A DNA stretch of 22,121 bases from Myxococcales bacterium UBA5297 (lineage in GTDB: Bacteria > Myxococcota > Myxococcia > Myxococcales > UBA5297), in assembly GCA_002408385.1 (NCBI GenBank), contig DHSB01000192.1:1-22121 (forward strand), given 5' to 3'. Numbering within the stretch: the first letter of the stretch is position 1; every line of letters starts with the position of its first letter. Below, in pieces: positions 2,430 to 11,136 of this stretch. A program made the translations under genes and the position numbers. A model generated the notes under the pieces. The model was given only the letters and a program-made list of their open reading frames with translations. It did not search any database and was not told where the DNA came from.

Positions 2430-2464
2430 TTGACGGCACTGTCGGCCCCACCGACAATGGGGCC
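2430..2464 (+). promoter_or_regulatory. Candidate promoter of the pqqD-like operon with overlapping inverted repeats
   Basis: TTGACG (2430-2435) is followed after 17 bases by GACAAT (2453-2458), a 5/6 and 4/6 match to the sigma70 consensus. Transcription would start near 2465, only about six bases before the ATG at 2471. Two mutually exclusive perfect dyads overlap the -10: TGTCGG/CCGACA (2440-2456, 5-base loop) and GGCCCCA/TGGGGCC (2444-2464, 7-base loop). They could be operators or competing hairpins. Neither has been tested. Confidence 0.4.
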
Positions 2465-2470
2465 TTTCAC

Positions 2471-2806
2471 ATGGAAGAGCTGCTCGACAAGAAGCCCTCG
2501 CCTCACCCCGAGGCGGCCATCGAGAACGTGGGCGGCCGCATCATGGCGGCGACGCCCGACGACCAATTGCACTACTTCGTCGAGGATGGCACCGAAGAGG
2601 AGCCCAGCGAGGTTGGCGATCGCATCGTCGAGCTCTCAGACGGCGCGCGCACCGTTCGTGAAATCGCCGAGTGCCTCTGCGAAGAGTTTGAAGTCGATCT
2701 GGAAACGGCGCTGGAGGATACCGCCGAGTTCATTCGGCAACTCGTCGACAGCAAGGTCTTGCAGCTTAACGGAGGGGGGCAGCCCGCCCCCGACAACGTG
2801 CCTTAG
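2471..2806 (+). CDS. PqqD family (peptide-recognition) protein
   Basis: This 111-residue acidic protein fits the PqqD/RRE fold, a winged helix-turn-helix that binds leader peptides for modifying enzymes. The diagnostic half is residues 50-99: DRIVELSDGARTVREIAE, then the EEFEVD turn, and a helix ending TAEFIRQLVDSKVLQL. The N-terminal beta part (GGRIMAATPDDQLHYF) is also family-like. The ATG at 2471 is the first start giving a normal family length; upstream reading-frame sequence is arginine- and proline-rich and looks non-coding. The stop is 33 bases before the giant lipoprotein gene, so the two are probably co-transcribed. No radical SAM enzyme is adjacent. PqqD-like proteins are known partners of HprK-related kinases in the 'HPr-rel-A' type, and such a kinase is encoded downstream at 9972. 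The function here is inferred. Confidence 0.8.
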   Translation: MEELLDKKPSPHPEAAIENVGGRIMAATPDDQLHYFVEDGTEEEPSEVGDRIVELSDGARTVREIAECLCEEFEVDLETALEDTAEFIRQLVDSKVLQLNGGGQPAPDNVP

Positions 2807-2839
2807 CCAGGGCGGCTGGCGAGGCGCCGGGGAAGAAGC

Positions 2840-5800
2840 ATGTTCCGAAACCTCGGAATTGCGGTCGTGTTTGCGCTGGTTGCCTCGGCTTGTTCTTGCG
2901 GCAAGACAGAGCCGACCCCGCCGATCACCTCGGTCGCCCTCTCGCAGCCGGCCGACGGCGCGACGCTCACCATGCGCGACGACGTCGCCAACGACGTCGA
3001 AGGGCTGCAGGTGAACGTCCGCGGCAGCGCCACCGGTTTCGCCGCGGGAGCGACCGCCGCCCTGGCGCTCGACGGCACCGAGACCGGCCAGTCGATCGGG
3101 CTGACCGACGGCTCGTTCTCCTTCGCCGCGGTGACCATCCCTGCCGGCGCGCACGTCGTCGCGGTCACCGTCGGCGACGGCGCGGTGACCAACCAGGCCT
3201 CCGCGTCGGTCGTCTTCGACGACAGCCCGCTTCCCGACTCGATCGAGATCGCCGCTCCGCTCGGCGGGACGCTCAACGCCAAGGCCGACCTCGACCCCGA
3301 ACAGGAAGCCCTGCAGACCGACGTCTCGGTCAACAGCGTCATGCTCACCGGCGGCACCGTGCGCCTGTGCCTGGCCGCCGAGGGCTTCGTCGGAAACGGG
3401 GACTGCAAGCAGGCCCAAGGCCAGGTCCTCGGCGAGCCGGCGGCCCTCTCGACCAGCGGGACCACGACTTTTGTCGGCGTCACCCTGCCCGAAGGCGACC
3501 TCGCCCTGACCGCCGAGTACGAGGCCGAAAACGGCGAGGTGCTCCTCTCGCAGACCGTGCCGCTGGTCGTCGACACGATCGCGCCGACCCTCGAGTTCGT
3601 CTCGCCGAGAAGCGGCGAGATGGTCGGAGCTCAGGCCTTCGACGTCGTCCTTCAGACCGACGCCGAAGCGAACCAGCGGGTGACCATCGAGTCGAGCACG
3701 AAGCCGGGCGAGCCCTTCTACGACAACGTGGGCGCCGACGGCTCGGCGGTCGTCTTCGTGAGCCTCGAGCCTGGCGTCCAGGAGCTGACGGCGAGCCTGA
3801 CCGACAAGGCGGGCAACCCCGCAACTGCGTCCATCCAGCTCACCGTGGACCTCGCCGGCTGCCTCGTCGAGCTGACCGCTCCGCCGACGGGCGCACACTT
3901 CTATTTCAACCTCGCGAACACCACCGCTGCCGAAGGCTCGCTGCGCACCTACACGCTCAGCGGGAGCACCGAGAACTGCGCCGGCGGCACGGTGCGCGTC
4001 ACCAAGACCGTCGACTCGGTCTCCGCCGAGCTTGGCAGCGTGATCGCGGCCGAGGACGGCTCGTTCAGCTTCGTGGCCGCGCTCGCCGACGGCGAGAACA
4101 ACGCCACACTCAACGTGAAGGTCGAAGGGGGGCTTGCCCCGAACGACGGCGTCACGCTCGTCTACACGGCCGACTTCACGCCTCCCGTCATCTCCTTCGC
4201 CGCTCCCGCCGAAGGACAGCTCATCACGCAGCAGACGACGCCGGTGAAGCTGGGGACCGAGGGGCTCGAGGAAGGAGCGGCCGTCGTCATCGAGTCTCCT
4301 GAGCAGACGGTCACCTCTCACGTCACCGCCGGCGGCGAGGTCGTGACGGTCCTCAGCCTCGCGCTCGGTCCACAGACCCTGACCGCGAGCGCCAGCGACC
4401 GGGCAGGCAATCCCGCGAGCCGCTCCATCGGCGTGACCGTGGACGTCCAAGGCTGTGACGTCGAGGTGTCGGAGCCCGGTCTCAACGCGGTCTTCAACCT
4501 CGCCAACGCGATCGTGGACGACTCGGTCAGCCCGAAGACCGGCACCTATCTGATCGTGGGTCACACCGACCGCTGCCCGAACGGCCTCGTGCGCTTCACC
4601 AAGGCCGTGGGCGGAGCGTCGACCGATCTCGGCACGGTCCAGGCCGATGCCCAGGGCGATTTTTCGTACCTGGCGACCTTTATCGACGGCGAGACGGACG
4701 CGGTCCTCAACATCAAGATCGAAGCCGGCCTCGCCCCGAACGACGGCGTCGACCTCGTCTACACCGCCGACTTCACCGCGCCGACCGTCGCCTTCCTCGC
4801 GCCGCTCGACGGGGAGCTCCTCACCACGCAGACCGCCGAGGTCCAGGTGCAGACCACCGGCCTGGAGGAGGGCGCGAGCGTCTCGATCGCCTCGTCCCCG
4901 ACACAGACGGTCACGGCCACGACCGATGCGGCGGGCCGCGCCAGCGCGACGATCAGCCTCAGCCTCGGGCAACAGACCCTGACCGCGAGCGTCGCCGACG
5001 CCGCGGGAAACCCCGCCGAAGCTTCGATCTCGGTGACGATGGACATCGACGGTTGCGACGTGGTGGTGACCTCGCCGACGCCCGCTTTCGTCTTCAACAC
5101 GGTCAACTCGACTGTGGACAGCTCGGTCAGCCCGAAGACCGGCACCTACGAGATCGTCGGCCACACCACCCGCTGTGCGAACGGCACGGTGCGGTTCACC
5201 AAGGCCGTCAACGGCGTCAGCAGCGAGCTGGGGACGACGCAAGCCGACGACCAGGGCGCGTTCCGCTATCTCGCCACCCTGGTGGACGGCGAGAGCGGCG
5301 CAACTCTCAACGTCAAGGTCGAAGCCGGCCTCGCGCCCAACGACGGCGTCGACATCACCTACTCCGCTGACTTCACCCCGCCGACGATAGCCTTTGTCGC
5401 CCCGGTGCAAGACGAGCTGATCACCGCCGAGACCACGGCCGTGGGGCTGCAGACCGGGGGCCTCGAGGCTGGCGCGCTCGTCACCATTCGCTCGCCCGCC
5501 GAGACCGTCACCGCGAACACCGACGCGAGCGGAAGCGCGAGCGCAATCCTTAGGCTCGCAACCGGCCGCCAGACCCTGACCGCGCAAGTGGAGGATCTGG
5601 CAGGCAACCCCGCGACCGCATCGGTTGAGATCCTGATGGACCTCGAGGGCTGCGACGTCCTCGTCAGCGACCCCGCGCCGGGCATCGTCTTCAACACCGC
5701 CAATGCGACGGTCAACGACACGGCCAACCCGAAGACCGGCACCTATACCGTCGTCGGCCACACCGACCGCTGCCCGAACGGCACCGTGCGGCTCACCAAG

Positions 5801-8800
5801 ACCGTAGCCGGCGTCGCGACCGAGCTTGGGACCGTGGCCGCGGACGCCCAGGGCGATTTCAGCTTCCCCGCCACCTTCGTCGACGGAGAGGCCGACGCGA
5901 CGCTCAACGTCAGGGTCGAGGCGGGCCTCGCGCCGAACGCCGGGTTCGACCTCGGCTACACGGCCGACTTCACGCCTCCGAGCCTCGTCTCCGCGCTCCC
6001 CGAGCTGGGCACACTGACGATCGTGCACCCGAGCAACCCGAACGTCGGCCAGCCCGGCTTCGTCGCTGACGCCGACCCGACGAGCGCCGGCGGCCAGGTC
6101 GATGTCGCGCTCGTCGTCAGCGGGGCGGGCAGCATCTCGAGCACCGGCACCGGCAACGTTGCGATCAGCGGGACGACCCCGGCCTTCTCGCAGACGATCG
6201 ACTCGAACGCGCAGCAGACCGTCTCGGCGCGGGTCACCTTCGCCGAAGGGTTCAACGGCACCGCGACCATCACGCTGACCGACGGCGCGGGCAACTTCGT
6301 GACCGGCGAGTGGAACGTGCGAGTCGCGACGGCGCAGCTCCCGACGCCGACCATCGCTCTACCGAGCGCGGGAACCGTCAACGTCTTCCGGGATCTTGGT
6401 GGCGACCGGGCGACCTACGCGGTCGTGCAGGGCAACGTGACCTTCTCGGCGACACCCTCTGGAGCGCAGGTCTACCTGTGCTCGAATGCACCCGGCCTCA
6501 CGGGCGTCGGCGCCTGCAACAAGCCGGGCTTCAACGAGATAGCCGGCACACGCCAAAGCCCAACCGGCAGCAACCAGTTCTACTCCGCGCTGCGACTGCC
6601 GCAGGGCGCTCAACAGCTCGTCGCTGAGATGAGCGACGCGGTCGGGGCCTTTACGAGCTCGGCGACCGTCGCGCTGACCGTCGATACCGTCCCACCGGTC
6701 GTCACCAGCGTCGTCGCGCTCGAGGACACCAACAGCGACGGGCTCCTCTCCGGAACCGAGCTCCCGCCCGGCCAGCAGGCACAAATCGAAGTGCGCGTCA
6801 CCGGCGTGCCCGACGGCAGGCAGGTCACGCTGTACGACGGCGCGACGGTGTTGCCCCGCGTCGCTCTCGCTGGCGGCGCCGCGACCTTCCTCGTCACGTT
6901 GAGCGACGGACTTCACGTCTTGAAGGCGAGCGTGACCGATCTCGCGGGCAACCCCAACGAGTCGTCCTCGGTCAGCCCGCCGATCGTGAATGAAGCGGCG
7001 ACCCTCCAGCTACACGTCGACCGAACGGCCCCGTCTATCTCGATACCGTCGCCAACGTTCTCCGTCTGCAATGCCGCCGGGGACGACATGCCGAGCACCC
7101 CGGACTGCGACTTGGTTCTCACCGCCTCGGTCGGCACAGGAGCTAACCGGGTGACCTTCGGCGGCCCCGGCAACCCGACGCCCGCTATCATCGACGCGCC
7201 CTTTGCAAACAACCGTGCGACCTCCCGCTACCAGCTCGGCCAAGGTGGACCGCATACGCTTACCGCCACCGTGTTCGACGCCGCAGGCAACTCGCGCGAG
7301 GCGACCCGCACCTTCACCGTCGATACGCTGCCGCCGACGCTCAGGTTCCTCAGCCCGAGCGAAGGCGAGACGCTCGGCTCGCAGACCTTCACCGTCTCGC
7401 TTCGGGCGACAGGCGCCGAGGCGGGCCGGAAGGTCACGGTCACCAGCTCGGTCGATGGCCGCACTGTCGGGGAAGGGTCCGTCGGCACCGATGAGCTGGC
7501 GACCTTCTCGGTGACCGTTCCCGACGCGAGCCAGACGCTCACCGCGTCGGTCTCCGACTTGGCTGGAAACCCGGCAGTCAACGCCCTACTGAACGTGCAG
7601 ATCGACCTCGTGGGCTGCGACATCAACTTCACCTACCCGGCCGACGCGAACGTCACCTTCAATCTGAACAACGCTCCGAACGGTGAGGTGGTCGTCACCG
7701 GCATCTCGAATCGCTGTCCCGACACCGAGGTACGGTTCTTTGCGAAGGTCGGCACCGGGCCGGAGTCCTTGCTCGGCACCAGGATGACCGACGGAACCGG
7801 CGCGTTCTCGTTCCCCCATACCTTCGCCGACGGAACGGTCACCGAATTCATCGCGGAGCTCACCTCGGGACCGACCAATCGAGGAAGCTTCACCGCGAGG
7901 ACCGACATTACGGCCCCCACCTTCACCATCAACTCGCCGGTAGTTGCTGCCGACCGGAAGCTCTTCGTGGTCGCCCCGACCGGCAACCTCAATGTTCGCG
8001 ACGGCTTGGTCGGCTACGTCCCGGACGCCGACGAGAGCCTGCCCGGCGGCCAGGTCGATTTCGACATCGCCGTCTCCGGAGGCGGGGCGTTCGATGAGAG
8101 CACGGGTGGCTCGCTCGTCATCTATCGGGACGGGACGCCGATCCTGAGCGAGGGGATTACCACCAACGGTTCGGTCACGCTCCCGGTGCTGACCGCCACT
8201 TTGGAGCAGTCGTTCGTCGGGACGGTCACCGTCGCGGTCACCGATGCTGCCGGCAACGAGACGGTCGCGACGTTTGATACGACCGTCGATGTGGTGCCGC
8301 CGGAGGCGCCGACGGTGGTGATGAGCGACCCGGGCGACGGGCTCTTCACCAGGGTTCTCGATCTGCGCCGCGCGGACATCGACGTCTGGATTGTCGCCGG
8401 CGGCGACGACGGCCCGACCGCAGAGGCGAGCGGATGGGCGTTCGGCTACACGACGGGCACCAGGCTCGCCAACGCCGCCTTCGACGATCTCGCTTTTGAC
8501 AACACGAGCATCACCACCAATGCGCCGCTGGCGGCGCTTACCGGGGCGGGTCAGAAAGCGAATGTCGAGCTCCGCGGCATCCCGTCGCTCAACATCCTCT
8601 TCGTGGCCCCGCGCGCTCTTGACAGCGTCGGCAACCGCTCGCCGCTCGAGGCGACCGAAATCGATTTGATGTGGCCGAGCGAGCGCATCGAGAAGCAAAC
8701 CACTTCTCCGACCCCGGCCTATTTCGGCGCCTACATGGCAAGCGGAGACCTGAATGGGGACGGAGTAGCCGATTTGGCAGTCTCCGCTTGGTCGGAAAAC

Positions 8801-9835
8801 AACGTCACCGGATCGGTCAGCGTCTATTTCGGAGGACCCCTTCCGCTTTCCTCAACAACGATGCCCGGACCAGCCCCGAATGCTTACTTCGGCGCAACAC
8901 TTGGCATCGCCGACATCGACGGCGACCACCATCCGGAACTATTCGTAAGGAACGGCACGCTTCTCGACGCGTATTCCTTCCCAGTCGGTCCGCCTGCAGT
9001 TCCTACGAAGCTCTTCTCCTTCAGCCCCCGCGGAACACTCGTTCGACAGCTTCCCGATATTAACGGCGACGGAGTTGCCGAAGTTGGCGTAGGAAACCAG
9101 CTCTTCAACAGCAGCAGCGGGCGCTTCCATGTCTTCTACGGAAGGAGCGACTGGTCGACGGTCATCCAGGGCGGCTTGGTCAGCCTCGATTCGGCCGACC
9201 TAATCATCACTGGATTGGAAAGCGGCGCCCGGCTCACAGGAACGGCAAGCTTCGCATTCCTCGAGGACATGGATGCGCCTGGCGAGCATGGAATCGTGCT
9301 CGGCGCATACGGCGCCAATCATGCCTACCTCTTCGCTACGGAAGACCTGCGGTCCCTGGGAAAGACTGCCGACACAACCCACGCCCGACAGCGCTTTGAG
9401 TTCGCCGGCGCCAATCGATTCGGATTCGCGTTGGCATTTGCGAAGGTAGACGGAGATGAGCTCGCCGACTTGCTCATCGGCGCCCCCTACTCCAGCTCCG
9501 TCTATCTCGCCAGGCAGAATACCCCCGGGCACTTTGATCAAGCCCATCTGCATTTCTCTGGCACGGGCGGATTCGGCACAAGTTTCGCCGCATCCGATCT
9601 TAATGGAGACGCCTATCCCGACCTGGCGGTCGGGGGCAATAGTTATTCCTCGACTCCGTTGTCGATCTTCTGGGCAACCAGCACGGGACTACCTGAAGCA
9701 CCCGGGAGCGTCGTCTGGGGCAACCCTTCGTTTAGCCAAGCAATCGAATCTGCCGACTACAACAATGACGGCCTGCCAGACCTTGCGATAGGAGAATTCG
9801 CCTATGAAAACGGCAACGTCCAACTCTTTTACTAA
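2840..9835 (+). CDS. Giant surface lipoprotein with Ig-like tandem repeats and C-terminal FG-GAP/VCBS beta-propeller
   Basis: This 2331-residue protein starts at ATG 2840, behind a good ribosome site (GGGGAAG). Its signal peptide ends at a lipobox-like ASAC, with Cys18 as the probable lipid-bearing residue. Residues about 25-1950 are beta-rich Ig-like modules, many with the TLTAxVxDxAGNPA signature and ending in TPP or APT linkers. Four units of about 199 residues begin at 340, 538, 738 and 937, each opening with GC and carrying a second Cys (RC or NC), a possible disulfide; a degenerate fifth starts near 1592. A VxDADxxxxGGQVD module occurs twice (near 1080 and 1735). Residues 1960-2331 hold about six or seven FG-GAP repeats with calcium-loop motifs DLNGDGVAD, DIDGDHHPE, DINGDGVAE, DLNGDAYPD and DYNNDGLPD. 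It is likely an outer-surface adhesin or scaffold. The 3' quarter has lower GC than the rest. Confidence 0.93.
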   Translation: MFRNLGIAVVFALVASACSCGKTEPTPPITSVALSQPADGATLTMRDDVANDVEGLQVNVRGSATGFAAGATAALALDGTETGQSIGLTDGSFSFAAVTIPAGAHVVAVTVGDGAVTNQASASVVFDDSPLPDSIEIAAPLGGTLNAKADLDPEQEALQTDVSVNSVMLTGGTVRLCLAAEGFVGNGDCKQAQGQVLGEPAALSTSGTTTFVGVTLPEGDLALTAEYEAENGEVLLSQTVPLVVDTIAPTLEFVSPRSGEMVGAQAFDVVLQTDAEANQRVTIESSTKPGEPFYDNVGADGSAVVFVSLEPGVQELTASLTDKAGNPATASIQLTVDLAGCLVELTAPPTGAHFYFNLANTTAAEGSLRTYTLSGSTENCAGGTVRVTKTVDSVSAELGSVIAAEDGSFSFVAALADGENNATLNVKVEGGLAPNDGVTLVYTADFTPPVISFAAPAEGQLITQQTTPVKLGTEGLEEGAAVVIESPEQTVTSHVTAGGEVVTVLSLALGPQTLTASASDRAGNPASRSIGVTVDVQGCDVEVSEPGLNAVFNLANAIVDDSVSPKTGTYLIVGHTDRCPNGLVRFTKAVGGASTDLGTVQADAQGDFSYLATFIDGETDAVLNIKIEAGLAPNDGVDLVYTADFTAPTVAFLAPLDGELLTTQTAEVQVQTTGLEEGASVSIASSPTQTVTATTDAAGRASATISLSLGQQTLTASVADAAGNPAEASISVTMDIDGCDVVVTSPTPAFVFNTVNSTVDSSVSPKTGTYEIVGHTTRCANGTVRFTKAVNGVSSELGTTQADDQGAFRYLATLVDGESGATLNVKVEAGLAPNDGVDITYSADFTPPTIAFVAPVQDELITAETTAVGLQTGGLEAGALVTIRSPAETVTANTDASGSASAILRLATGRQTLTAQVEDLAGNPATASVEILMDLEGCDVLVSDPAPGIVFNTANATVNDTANPKTGTYTVVGHTDRCPNGTVRLTKTVAGVATELGTVAADAQGDFSFPATFVDGEADATLNVRVEAGLAPNAGFDLGYTADFTPPSLVSALPELGTLTIVHPSNPNVGQPGFVADADPTSAGGQVDVALVVSGAGSISSTGTGNVAISGTTPAFSQTIDSNAQQTVSARVTFAEGFNGTATITLTDGAGNFVTGEWNVRVATAQLPTPTIALPSAGTVNVFRDLGGDRATYAVVQGNVTFSATPSGAQVYLCSNAPGLTGVGACNKPGFNEIAGTRQSPTGSNQFYSALRLPQGAQQLVAEMSDAVGAFTSSATVALTVDTVPPVVTSVVALEDTNSDGLLSGTELPPGQQAQIEVRVTGVPDGRQVTLYDGATVLPRVALAGGAATFLVTLSDGLHVLKASVTDLAGNPNESSSVSPPIVNEAATLQLHVDRTAPSISIPSPTFSVCNAAGDDMPSTPDCDLVLTASVGTGANRVTFGGPGNPTPAIIDAPFANNRATSRYQLGQGGPHTLTATVFDAAGNSREATRTFTVDTLPPTLRFLSPSEGETLGSQTFTVSLRATGAEAGRKVTVTSSVDGRTVGEGSVGTDELATFSVTVPDASQTLTASVSDLAGNPAVNALLNVQIDLVGCDINFTYPADANVTFNLNNAPNGEVVVTGISNRCPDTEVRFFAKVGTGPESLLGTRMTDGTGAFSFPHTFADGTVTEFIAELTSGPTNRGSFTARTDITAPTFTINSPVVAADRKLFVVAPTGNLNVRDGLVGYVPDADESLPGGQVDFDIAVSGGGAFDESTGGSLVIYRDGTPILSEGITTNGSVTLPVLTATLEQSFVGTVTVAVTDAAGNETVATFDTTVDVVPPEAPTVVMSDPGDGLFTRVLDLRRADIDVWIVAGGDDGPTAEASGWAFGYTTGTRLANAAFDDLAFDNTSITTNAPLAALTGAGQKANVELRGIPSLNILFVAPRALDSVGNRSPLEATEIDLMWPSERIEKQTTSPTPAYFGAYMASGDLNGDGVADLAVSAWSENNVTGSVSVYFGGPLPLSSTTMPGPAPNAYFGATLGIADIDGDHHPELFVRNGTLLDAYSFPVGPPAVPTKLFSFSPRGTLVRQLPDINGDGVAEVGVGNQLFNSSSGRFHVFYGRSDWSTVIQGGLVSLDSADLIITGLESGARLTGTASFAFLEDMDAPGEHGIVLGAYGANHAYLFATEDLRSLGKTADTTHARQRFEFAGANRFGFALAFAKVDGDELADLLIGAPYSSSVYLARQNTPGHFDQAHLHFSGTGGFGTSFAASDLNGDAYPDLAVGGNSYSSTPLSIFWATSTGLPEAPGSVVWGNPSFSQAIESADYNNDGLPDLAIGEFAYENGNVQLFY
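3857..5985 (+). repeat. Tandem in-gene repeats of about 597 bp (3.5 copies) encoding paired Ig-like domains
   Basis: Units start at 3857, 4451, 5051 and 5648, giving spacings of 594, 600 and 597 bases. Each encodes two Ig-like domains: a Cys-containing one (GCDVxV ... VFNxxNxTV ... PKTGTY ... GHTxRC ... GLAPNDGVDL ... TADFT) and a second (LITxxT ... QTLTA ... AGNPA). The last unit keeps only its first domain. Stretches such as cccgaagaccggcaccta are identical between units, pointing to fairly recent duplication. Confidence 0.85.
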
Positions 9836-9840
9836 GCCGC

Positions 9841-9960
9841 GCAGGCGCTACCACAAGCCATGCCTGCGTACCGAGCCGCTTGCTGGCCCGGTGGCGGGCC
9901 AGTGCCCGCCCTCAAATCCCGGCTGCGGTTGGAACCCTGATCCGGACGGGTAGCGGTTCC
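9841..9960 (+). promoter_or_regulatory. Three hairpins between the giant lipoprotein gene and the kinase gene
   Basis: The 136-base gap contains GCAGGC/GCCTGC (9841-9846 with 9862-9867), CTGGCCCG/CGGGCCAG with a GTGG loop (9883-9902), and GGAACC/GGTTCC (9931-9936 with 9955-9960). None has a T-tract, so they look more like processing, pausing or mRNA-stability elements than full terminators. They could lower expression of the downstream kinase and peptidase relative to the abundant surface protein. Confidence 0.4.
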
Positions 9961-9971
9961 GAGAAAAAGAA

Positions 9972-10724
9972 GTGTTCTTTCGCATCGCTGCAGGAATCGT
10001 TTGCTCGACCGAGAAGTCATCAGTTTTCGACCGTTTCCGAGTGCCGGTAGCCGAGTCATCTGAACCATTGGTTCAATTGCGGATCACGCAGGCGGAAGTT
10101 GGACGGGCCGGTCTTCCACTCGGAATGGCTGGCCGCCTTGGCACCTTTTCCGTCGATGGAGATCACCTCAGCTGCGCTTGCGACTGGAACTTCGATTCCA
10201 TCCGACTCGTCCTGCAGCTATGTTGCGCTCTCGGCGCATGGCGAACGGGGGGCGTGTTGCTTCATGGCGCGGGGCTGATTGCCTCCGACGACGCTTCAGT
10301 CCTCGCGCTTGCTCCATCGGGTGGAGGCAAGAGCACCCTGACTGACCTCGTCCGCCTGCGAAGCCTCAGTGACGAATGCGTAATCGCCCATCCGGGCCCC
10401 CCGCCAACGCTGGCGGGGACCGTCATTCGCAGCAGCGCTCGCAAGACTCCGTCTCTCGAGACACGTCCACTTCGCGCGCTTCTGCTGCTCGAGAAGTCGG
10501 TCCGCCCGTTCTACGAAAAGCTGCACTCCGCGGACGGACTCCGTGCGCTCGCGCATCAGGCGTTCCGCTTTCCCTCGGAGTTGGGAATGAAGGGGAGCGT
10601 ACTCAGCCGGTTGGCCCCGGTCGCGAACTCCGTTCCCACCTATCGCTTCGCCTTTCCAAAATCCGCTCAGGCTGATGACCTTTTGAGCTCCCTCCTCAAT
10701 GACCTGGCGAAAACGAATCCTTGA
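9972..10724 (+). CDS. HPr kinase-related P-loop protein (HprK-related kinase)
   Basis: This 250-residue protein starts at GTG 9972, eight bases after a purine-rich GAGAAAAAGAA run. The centre matches the HPrK/PEPCK-type kinase core: LLHGAG (97-101), then the Walker A loop APSGGGKST (114-122), then a LSDE segment (131-135) where HPr kinases carry an acidic, magnesium-binding pair. The later LRALLLLEKS segment (167-176) is also typical of HprK-related proteins. The N-terminal 90 residues form a separate, poorly conserved domain. Relatives include the lasso-peptide tailoring kinases that phosphorylate a serine on a peptide, and HprK-related kinase A, which is genetically linked to PqqD-like proteins. 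There is no HPr or PTS gene here, so classical catabolite control is unlikely. Its GC is much lower than that of the next gene. The substrate is unknown. Confidence 0.8.
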   Translation: MFFRIAAGIVCSTEKSSVFDRFRVPVAESSEPLVQLRITQAEVGRAGLPLGMAGRLGTFSVDGDHLSCACDWNFDSIRLVLQLCCALGAWRTGGVLLHGAGLIASDDASVLALAPSGGGKSTLTDLVRLRSLSDECVIAHPGPPPTLAGTVIRSSARKTPSLETRPLRALLLLEKSVRPFYEKLHSADGLRALAHQAFRFPSELGMKGSVLSRLAPVANSVPTYRFAFPKSAQADDLLSSLLNDLAKTNP

Positions 10725-11136
10725 AACCGCCGGGCTCGAGGCCGCGCTGCGAGAAATCGCGACCCCGAGCATGTCGCCCACCATCCGCCCGGGCGACACC
10801 ATCCGCTTCCGCCGCAATCGCCGCTCCCCGCACCCCGGCGAGATCTGGGTCTTCCACCGCGGCCCCCAGCACATCGTCCACCGCATCCTCTGGGTCCGCC
10901 CCGACGGCTCCGCCCTCTTCAAAGGCGACGCCTGCCACCGCACCGACGGCTTCATTCCCCGCCGCCAGCTCTTCGGCCCAGTCTCCGAGATCCGCCGCGG
11001 CGACCGCTGGCGCCCGGCCAACCGCCGCCGCGACCGCCTCCTCGGCCTCACCTACAGCCTGACCCGCACCGCCGCCTACCTCGCCGCCCGCCGCATCTTC
11101 CGACTCGGCAAGCGCTTGGCCGCTCGCGTGGAGTAG
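10699..11136 (+). CDS. S24/S26 family peptidase, Sec11/archaeal signal-peptidase-like
   Basis: This 145-residue protein has the signal-peptidase core. ATPSMSPTIRPGD (21-33) holds the probable nucleophile Ser24, and GEIWVF is the next strand. HIVHRILW (58-65) aligns with the IVHR box of eukaryotic/archaeal Sec11-type enzymes, where His (here His61) replaces the general-base Lys of bacterial SPase I. KGDACHRTDGF (75-85) supplies Asp77 and Asp83, like the GDNN..DD box, and LFGPV follows. No N-terminal membrane segment is visible; the C-terminal 45 residues are very basic and helical. The ATG at 10699 overlaps the kinase gene by 26 bases and has no ribosome site, so translational coupling is likely. 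Small S24/S26 proteases are seen in peptide-modification clusters. Cleavage of a PqqD-bound or kinase-modified substrate is an inference. Confidence 0.82.
   Translation: MTWRKRILETAGLEAALREIATPSMSPTIRPGDTIRFRRNRRSPHPGEIWVFHRGPQHIVHRILWVRPDGSALFKGDACHRTDGFIPRRQLFGPVSEIRRGDRWRPANRRRDRLLGLTYSLTRTAAYLAARRIFRLGKRLAARVE

Follow-up and report, generated by a model that had tools for sequence, protein, structure and literature searches.

A probable RiPP-type operon with a PqqD-like protein, an HprK-like kinase and a giant FG-GAP lipoprotein in Myxococcales bacterium UBA5297

The stretch of DNA analysed here, referred to as the window (22,121 nucleotides), is a complete contig (G000:C188) of Myxococcales bacterium UBA5297, the source genome being 7.65 Mb in size and 95.6% complete. 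Four co-directional genes, encoding a PqqD-like protein, a giant lipoprotein, an HprK-like kinase and an S26-type peptidase, are true neighbours in it and tightly packed, as the original prediction had described, and their domain assignments agreed in kind with Pfam, family-model and structure-relative matches. A fifth, short gene was found between the lipoprotein and kinase genes (Table 1). A consensus scan of 10.7 kb revealed two sigma-70-like sites against 0.4 expected, while Rfam gave no matches.

Table 1. Features of the locus (positions in the window)
Feature	Position	Strand	Remarks
Sigma-70-like promoter match	2430..2458	+	5' of the PqqD gene; 9/12 consensus positions; weak, predicted
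PqqD-like protein (RRE, leader-peptide-binding domain), 111 aa	2471..2806	+	PF05402
Giant lipoprotein, 2331 aa	2840..9835	+	Lipobox-bearing signal peptide, Ig-like repeats; FG-GAP propeller at the C-terminus
C-terminal FG-GAP repeat region of the giant	8441..9832	+	PF01839, PF13517
Shine-Dalgarno sequence AGGAG	9790..9794	+	9 bases ahead of the ATG of the peptide gene
Precursor peptide gene, 49 aa	9804..9953	+	ATG start, open frame of 49 codons
Leader motif YHKPCL	9849..9866	+	Fits lasso-type YxxPxL
HprK-like (PEPCK-fold) P-loop kinase, 250 aa	9972..10724	+	GTG start
S26-type (signal-peptidase/NiSOD-protease-like) Ser-His peptidase, 145 aa	10699..11136	+	No N-terminal membrane helix by eye

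The PqqD-like protein matched PF05402 (E 2e-11, 44.4 bits against a cut-off of 23.4), and its nearest solved relative was TbiB1 (5v1u, E 2e-5), a lasso leader-binding protein. The C-terminus of the giant matched integrin alpha-V (5nem, E 3.5e-8). It thus resembles the FG-GAP propeller of integrin alpha-chains in sequence, whereas the giant itself is a bacterial lipoprotein; an AF2 model of the FG-GAP region alone was unusable (pLDDT 33). Integrin propellers take part in peptide-ligand binding.

The AF2 model of the kinase (pLDDT 93) has a PEPCK-type P-loop fold with an intact P-loop, as in PEPCK/HPrK-type P-loop kinases, and this fold is shared by HPr kinases. HPr kinase was not among the matches listed for the model, which has no bearing either way. 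The kinase profile gave P-loop matches only against PDB sequences, no Pfam family was matched at E 0.1 when HPr kinase proper was tested, and no curated family scored above its cut-off. PF27840, carried by 33 of 42 database hits of the kinase, was not returned by the Pfam scan for P0009 or P0012. Because the P-loop and the DE motif are invariant in 34 near homologues, the window kinase is probably active; in the wider set the motifs are less strict (TEE in L080), and they are altered in L080 and L077. The peptidase, for which again no curated family exceeded its cut-off, carries the catalytic nucleophile and His of S26 proteases. It resembles the nickel-SOD maturation protease (TIGR02754, E 1.6e-4) in being a small S26-type protease, but differs in scoring 22.1 bits against a cut-off of 63. 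The nickel-SOD maturation protease exposes a new N-terminus.

Short precursor genes are easily overlooked, and the one in the window straddles the end of a 7-kb gene, sharing 32 bases with the 3' end of the giant ORF. It encodes the peptide MKTATSNSFTKPRRRYHKPCLRTEPLAGPVAGQCPPSNPGCGWNPDPDG. The YxxPxL motif is described as conserved in Bradymonadales lasso leaders (PMC10368454), and W/Y/LxxP-type motifs are reported to be bound by the RREs of several RiPP groups (PMC12710340). The peptide is the likely substrate of the PqqD-like protein. A peptide profile run against the own genome retrieved this gene at E 9e-12 and nothing better than E 0.47 elsewhere. By eye, an inverted repeat of seven bases (CTGGCCC/GGGCCAG, 9883-9902) was seen within the core-coding part.

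In the protein database, 104 peptide hits at E 0.01 were obtained, comprising the window's own and 103 homologues, among others in Stigmatella, Archangium, Hyalangium, Vitiosangium, Pyxidicoccus and Corallococcus, where they are annotated as hypothetical protein. Their commonest residues read KK(P/A)YxPPxVRSE(R/K)ILVPDLF and become variable afterwards, a shared motif that is partly produced by the search itself; exactly two Cys lie C-terminal to this stretch in 91 of the 104. The leader of the peptides is thus conserved and the core variable, usually carrying two Cys. A codon comparison of five close relatives gave a pS of 0.37 and a pN of 0.027, and for the leader in 16 loci the values were 0.49 and 0.17, the relation being reversed in the other two frames. 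By this codon-level measure the peptide is under purifying selection in its own frame only, which marks it as coding in the relatives. A PqqD-like leader-binding protein and a short precursor gene whose leader is conserved while its core varies are two features of an RRE-dependent RiPP system, and we consider it very probable that the locus is a RiPP-type operon.

The distribution of the locus was followed through the kinase, for which matches were found in 65 of the 147 genomes of the class. Sixty stretches of at most 18.8 kb, namely 59 of the 69 other kinase places and the own-genome PqqD place on C115, were fetched and screened by means of PqqD, kinase and S26 profiles. Loci with PqqD, then a long FG-GAP ORF and then the kinase were assigned to class 1, which accounts for 35 of 61 stretches including the window. 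Class 2 (10 of 61) has PqqD and an ORF of about 900-1050 codons, broken up in L086, before the kinase. In the remaining 16, PqqD was otherwise placed (three: L070, L092, L093), the contig was cut (two: L037, L039), the kinase occurred without PqqD (ten) or was lacking (one); L089 had no kinase at the threshold used. At the level of the phylum, a kinase search at 1e-8 matched at least 131 of 195 genomes, and 20 hand-picked stretches yielded five further class 1 loci (L133, L134, L143, L144, L145). This brings class 1 to 40 loci in nine families (f1, f2, f5, f6, f7, f8, f10, f11, f24), three of them outside the order (f10 belongs to another order; f11 and f24 come from other parts of the phylum). 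PqqD is present in all 40 by selection.

The class 1 giants carry FG-GAP repeats and measure about 1200-3000 residues. A hydrophobic N-terminus followed by Cys, commonly GCxCG, was found in the 35 giants collected first and, on visual inspection, in the five that were added later, a count that leans towards the lipobox since start codons were picked by a score rewarding it. The giant protein between PqqD and kinase, regarded as unusual in the original prediction, is instead a constant feature of this locus type. Homologues of the four genes were not found scattered in related genomes, although it must be borne in mind that the kinase served to find these loci. Order variants are S26 before the kinase in L064 and radical SAM genes before the kinase in L143.

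Each of the 40 class 1 loci was found to hold a YxxP peptide, which lies where the giant gene ends in 39 of them and just before the kinase in L036. The rule applied asked for YxxP closely preceded by K or R, a distance of 22-62 residues between motif and stop, and an upstream start codon. The same rule called 298 of 5000 random stretches of these loci (6%); as each control draw was one stretch, whereas L036 was examined at a second place next to the kinase as well, the like-for-like count is 39 of 40. An earlier rule (control 160 of 4000) had missed L036, L038, L045, L069 and L075, and it was revised after their peptides had been read by eye, the new control being run thereafter. The peptides of L133 and L143 were found under the revised rule. 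For class 2, the earlier rule identified seven of ten peptides and those of L083, L085 and L086 were seen by eye; the revised rule gave four true peptides of ten (six called, two spurious). The small peptide that had been suggested, unseen, as a possible target is therefore supported by both the window and its relatives.

Because the loci had been chosen by a kinase match, a peptide-first profile search was added. It gave 32 places in 31 of the 147 genomes, many of them profile rows or near kin of rows. By coordinates, 28 lie beside a kinase, two (L148, L149) beside a giant ORF only and two (L150, L151) alone, L151 near a contig end. L150 (G138:C25) is a second, Cys-rich precursor-like frame (YRRPALRSERV...), seemingly an orphan, whose genome carries a full locus (L035) as well.

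Seventeen pieces of the window, the peptide excluded, were compared by BLAST with the 39 class 1 relatives. Matches were obtained for PqqD in 36, for the N-terminal and C-terminal parts of the giant in 24 and 32, for the kinase in 22, for EamA and MBL in 25 each and for S26 in three, the last count being low because S26 is too divergent for BLAST. Upstream, the sigma-54 regulator was matched in three relatives and the next ORF in none. The eight pieces beyond MBL matched in none of the 39, to which little weight is given, as most lie downstream of the stretches' reach and some are perhaps not genes. EamA and MBL, which recur mostly in f7, were rejected as parts of the locus: their presence varies, MBL also lies by nine PqqD-less kinases, and the EamA gene is preceded by a promoter-like site.

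In L062, L066, L069 and L075 the kinase domain lies 2.6-4 kb after the end of the giant and S26 is missing; these kinases form one clade (support 1.000) with PqqD-less kinases. The PqqD-less members (L058-L061, L063, L065, L072, L074, L082), in which the kinase may have taken on another role, adjoin MBL genes, and neighbouring YdjC (L058) and PanD (L066, of the same clade) were confirmed by Pfam in those two only. L148 retains PqqD, giant, peptide and EamA only, with no kinase or S26 nearby. The suggestion that the enzymes act on something encoded elsewhere is not needed in the window; it keeps some ground in that kinase and peptidase no longer belong to the locus in this one lineage (L062, L066, L069, L075, L148). 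PqqD, giant and peptide hold together most closely, an argument for a functional link between the last two.

An S26-type peptidase occurs in 36 of the 40 class 1 loci. Nucleophile and His were present in all 31 class 1 proteins examined (29 Ser, two Cys) by a revised motif, a stricter earlier one having detected 16 of 31; the Cys variants (CMWP, His kept) are those of L057 and L087 in f6. In 21 of the 40 loci a GNAT domain shares one frame with S26 (PF00583, E 1e-12 in L041), and in L057 kinase and S26 are fused in one frame. An S26-first search, which did not reach the divergent S26 of f7, matched 16 of 193 genomes, with 13 matches at most 5 kb from a kinase match and three not (G157, G008, G027). 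In the own genome, which is 95.6% complete, no match at E 1e-3 was obtained for the lasso leader peptidase (B2, PF13471), leaving S26 as the candidate leader peptidase. There is no constant exporter, EamA being present in 26 of 40 class 1 loci.

The original prediction had also remarked on the absence of a radical SAM enzyme or cyclase. This holds for the window's cassette, as no radical SAM match was found in the window stretch searched and no asparagine-synthetase-like cyclase among eight window proteins scanned with Pfam (including EamA and MBL), but seven of the 40 loci carry a radical SAM enzyme (L079, L080, L087, L133, L134, L143, L144). With no enzyme of a known RiPP class in the window's cassette, the nature of the modification is a guess. 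The short ORF could accordingly be an unmodified small protein, such as a signal, a regulator or a secreted Cys-rich peptide, with the enzymes targeting something else; the cassette has no enzyme forming a known class-defining bond, and Cys-rich cores could fold via disulfides alone. We regard this as quite unlikely in view of a leader motif that fits PqqD-type binding, the conserved leader with its variable core and the radical SAM enzymes in relatives.

Among known systems, the kinase-bearing lasso clusters (paeninodin, pseudomycoidin, Bradymonas bsf) likewise combine an HPrK-type kinase with a lasso-type precursor, and bsf is described as also having a PqqD-like RRE as a discrete protein, a leader with YxxPxL and an FG-GAP protein at its border (PMC10368454, PMC8498205). 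The window shares the YxxPxL leader and the discrete RRE. Unlike these clusters, it has S26, which in relatives is often S26-GNAT, in place of B2 and cyclase, and the giant lipoprotein lies inside its operon; a lasso peptide proper was rejected, since the genome gave no B2 match and the cassette proteins scanned included no cyclase. The PqqD and radical SAM/SPASM RiPPs (PQQ, GeoRSP, mycofactocin-like) are similar in the PqqD-like RRE and the YxxP peptide, and in the radical SAM enzyme of the seven relatives, whereas the window has no radical SAM and its family-model scores are far below cut-off. PQQ biosynthesis was rejected on the PqqD model TIGR03859 (22.7 against 46 bits), and GeoRSP on TIGR04302 (PqqD, 16.2 against 100 bits) and the lack of radical SAM in the window stretch searched. 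HPr-rel-A also pairs a PqqD-like protein with an HprK-related kinase; it was rejected because the kinase (TIGR04352, 19.4 against 200 bits) and PqqD (TIGR04353, 13.7 against 35 bits) scored far below cut-off. No paper on this locus type was found within the open-licence PMC literature, and it looks like an unreported kind of modified-peptide operon, common to many myxobacteria and relatives.

PqqD, radical SAM, YxxP peptide and kinase also occur together without an FG-GAP giant (L136-L139, L141, L095). The last of these was the one locus returned by a kinase-alignment scan of genome contigs (Walker A pattern); it belongs to Anaerolineales, outside the phylum, and its kinase is a related one. 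A scan of viral contigs gave none. The simplest history would be that a radical SAM RiPP system gained the giant and lost radical SAM in the window's and some other lineages. The own genome holds a second PqqD/kinase locus (L070, C91:86500-105000) with the order PqqD, S26, radical SAM, YxxP peptide (EIYEPPQIEVIVLGS...), kinase and a C25 (gingipain-type) peptidase gene.

These giant-less loci favour a RiPP operon in which the giant is a passenger, sharing the transcript for historical reasons and having no contact with the peptide, and in Bradymonas bsf the border FG-GAP protein was judged "presumably not involved" in the published description (PMC10368454). Such a passenger role seems unlikely, as giant and peptide stay together across nine families while the genes just upstream change, L148 and L149 keep both without a nearby kinase, and class 2 holds another large secreted protein in the same slot. 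This class 2 protein differs from the giant: those with an assigned start begin with a signal peptide that has no lipobox, and the sole one scanned (L083) gave propeller matches below Pfam cut-offs (39.6 against 133 and 23.5 against 27.6 bits). In L078, L081, L083, L085, L086, L090, L091 and L094 a sister system was noted, with S26, PqqD, a large secreted protein, a peptide of the type YxxPAILWEQPFVALA..C.IPGESEC.P and a kinase. PqqD is followed in L083 by a protein of 181 aa for which Pfam gave no match. On balance, the giant is probably the partner of the peptide product.

The first reading of the original prediction, that PqqD, kinase and S26 act on the giant lipoprotein itself, could draw on the co-encoding of the genes and on a possible overlap of PqqD with the giant start (in L041, PqqD ends at 6879 and the giant is called from 6876). 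No evidence for modification of the surface protein by the enzymes of the locus was found. The giant starts with a lipoprotein signal rather than YxxPxL, a short conserved YxxP leader lies next door, and kinase and PqqD without an FG-GAP giant are still accompanied by a YxxP peptide, all of which makes this reading very improbable.

The best explanation, to which we assign a probability of about 0.7, is a RiPP-type operon that relies on an RRE and makes a product acting together with the giant surface lipoprotein encoded beside it. The biochemical steps, the export and the contact between peptide and propeller would then be as follows. PqqD would bind the YxxPxL leader of the 49-residue precursor and present it to kinase and peptidase. 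The S26-type peptidase would remove the leader while still in the cytosol, the cleavage site probably lying close to where the conserved leader gives way to the variable core. In many relatives, the GNAT domain fused to the peptidase could then acetylate the new N-terminus. The HprK-like kinase would phosphorylate Ser/Thr of the peptide, a step that we slightly favour. As L036-L038 lack the Ser/Thr of the leader (RTE, RSE), there is no single conserved phospho-site. The kinase of the Bradymonas lasso cluster is reported to phosphorylate core Ser3, as mapped in a precursor variant; even triple YxxPxL changes are described as without effect on phosphorylation, and single or double changes as leaving leader removal effective (PMC10368454). 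The mature peptide, usually with two Cys, would be exported and work with the giant lipoprotein, whose C-terminal integrin-like propeller would be its likely binding partner at the cell surface.

A further, tentative possibility is a new kind of RiPP, the product of which is a made-to-measure ligand or cofactor of the giant integrin-like lipoprotein and not a free antibiotic, the core diversifying with the receptor. With a core diversifying along with its own receptor, the pair could act in myxobacterial adhesion, kin recognition or predation. The findings suggest that FG-GAP proteins bordering other kinase-bearing clusters merit renewed attention, and the HprK-like kinase, the S26-type peptidase and the S26-GNAT fusion gain a concrete candidate substrate. 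If the explanation is true, a widespread operon of social and predatory bacteria would make a modified peptide for a dedicated surface protein, and RiPP chemistry would be linked to cell-surface recognition.
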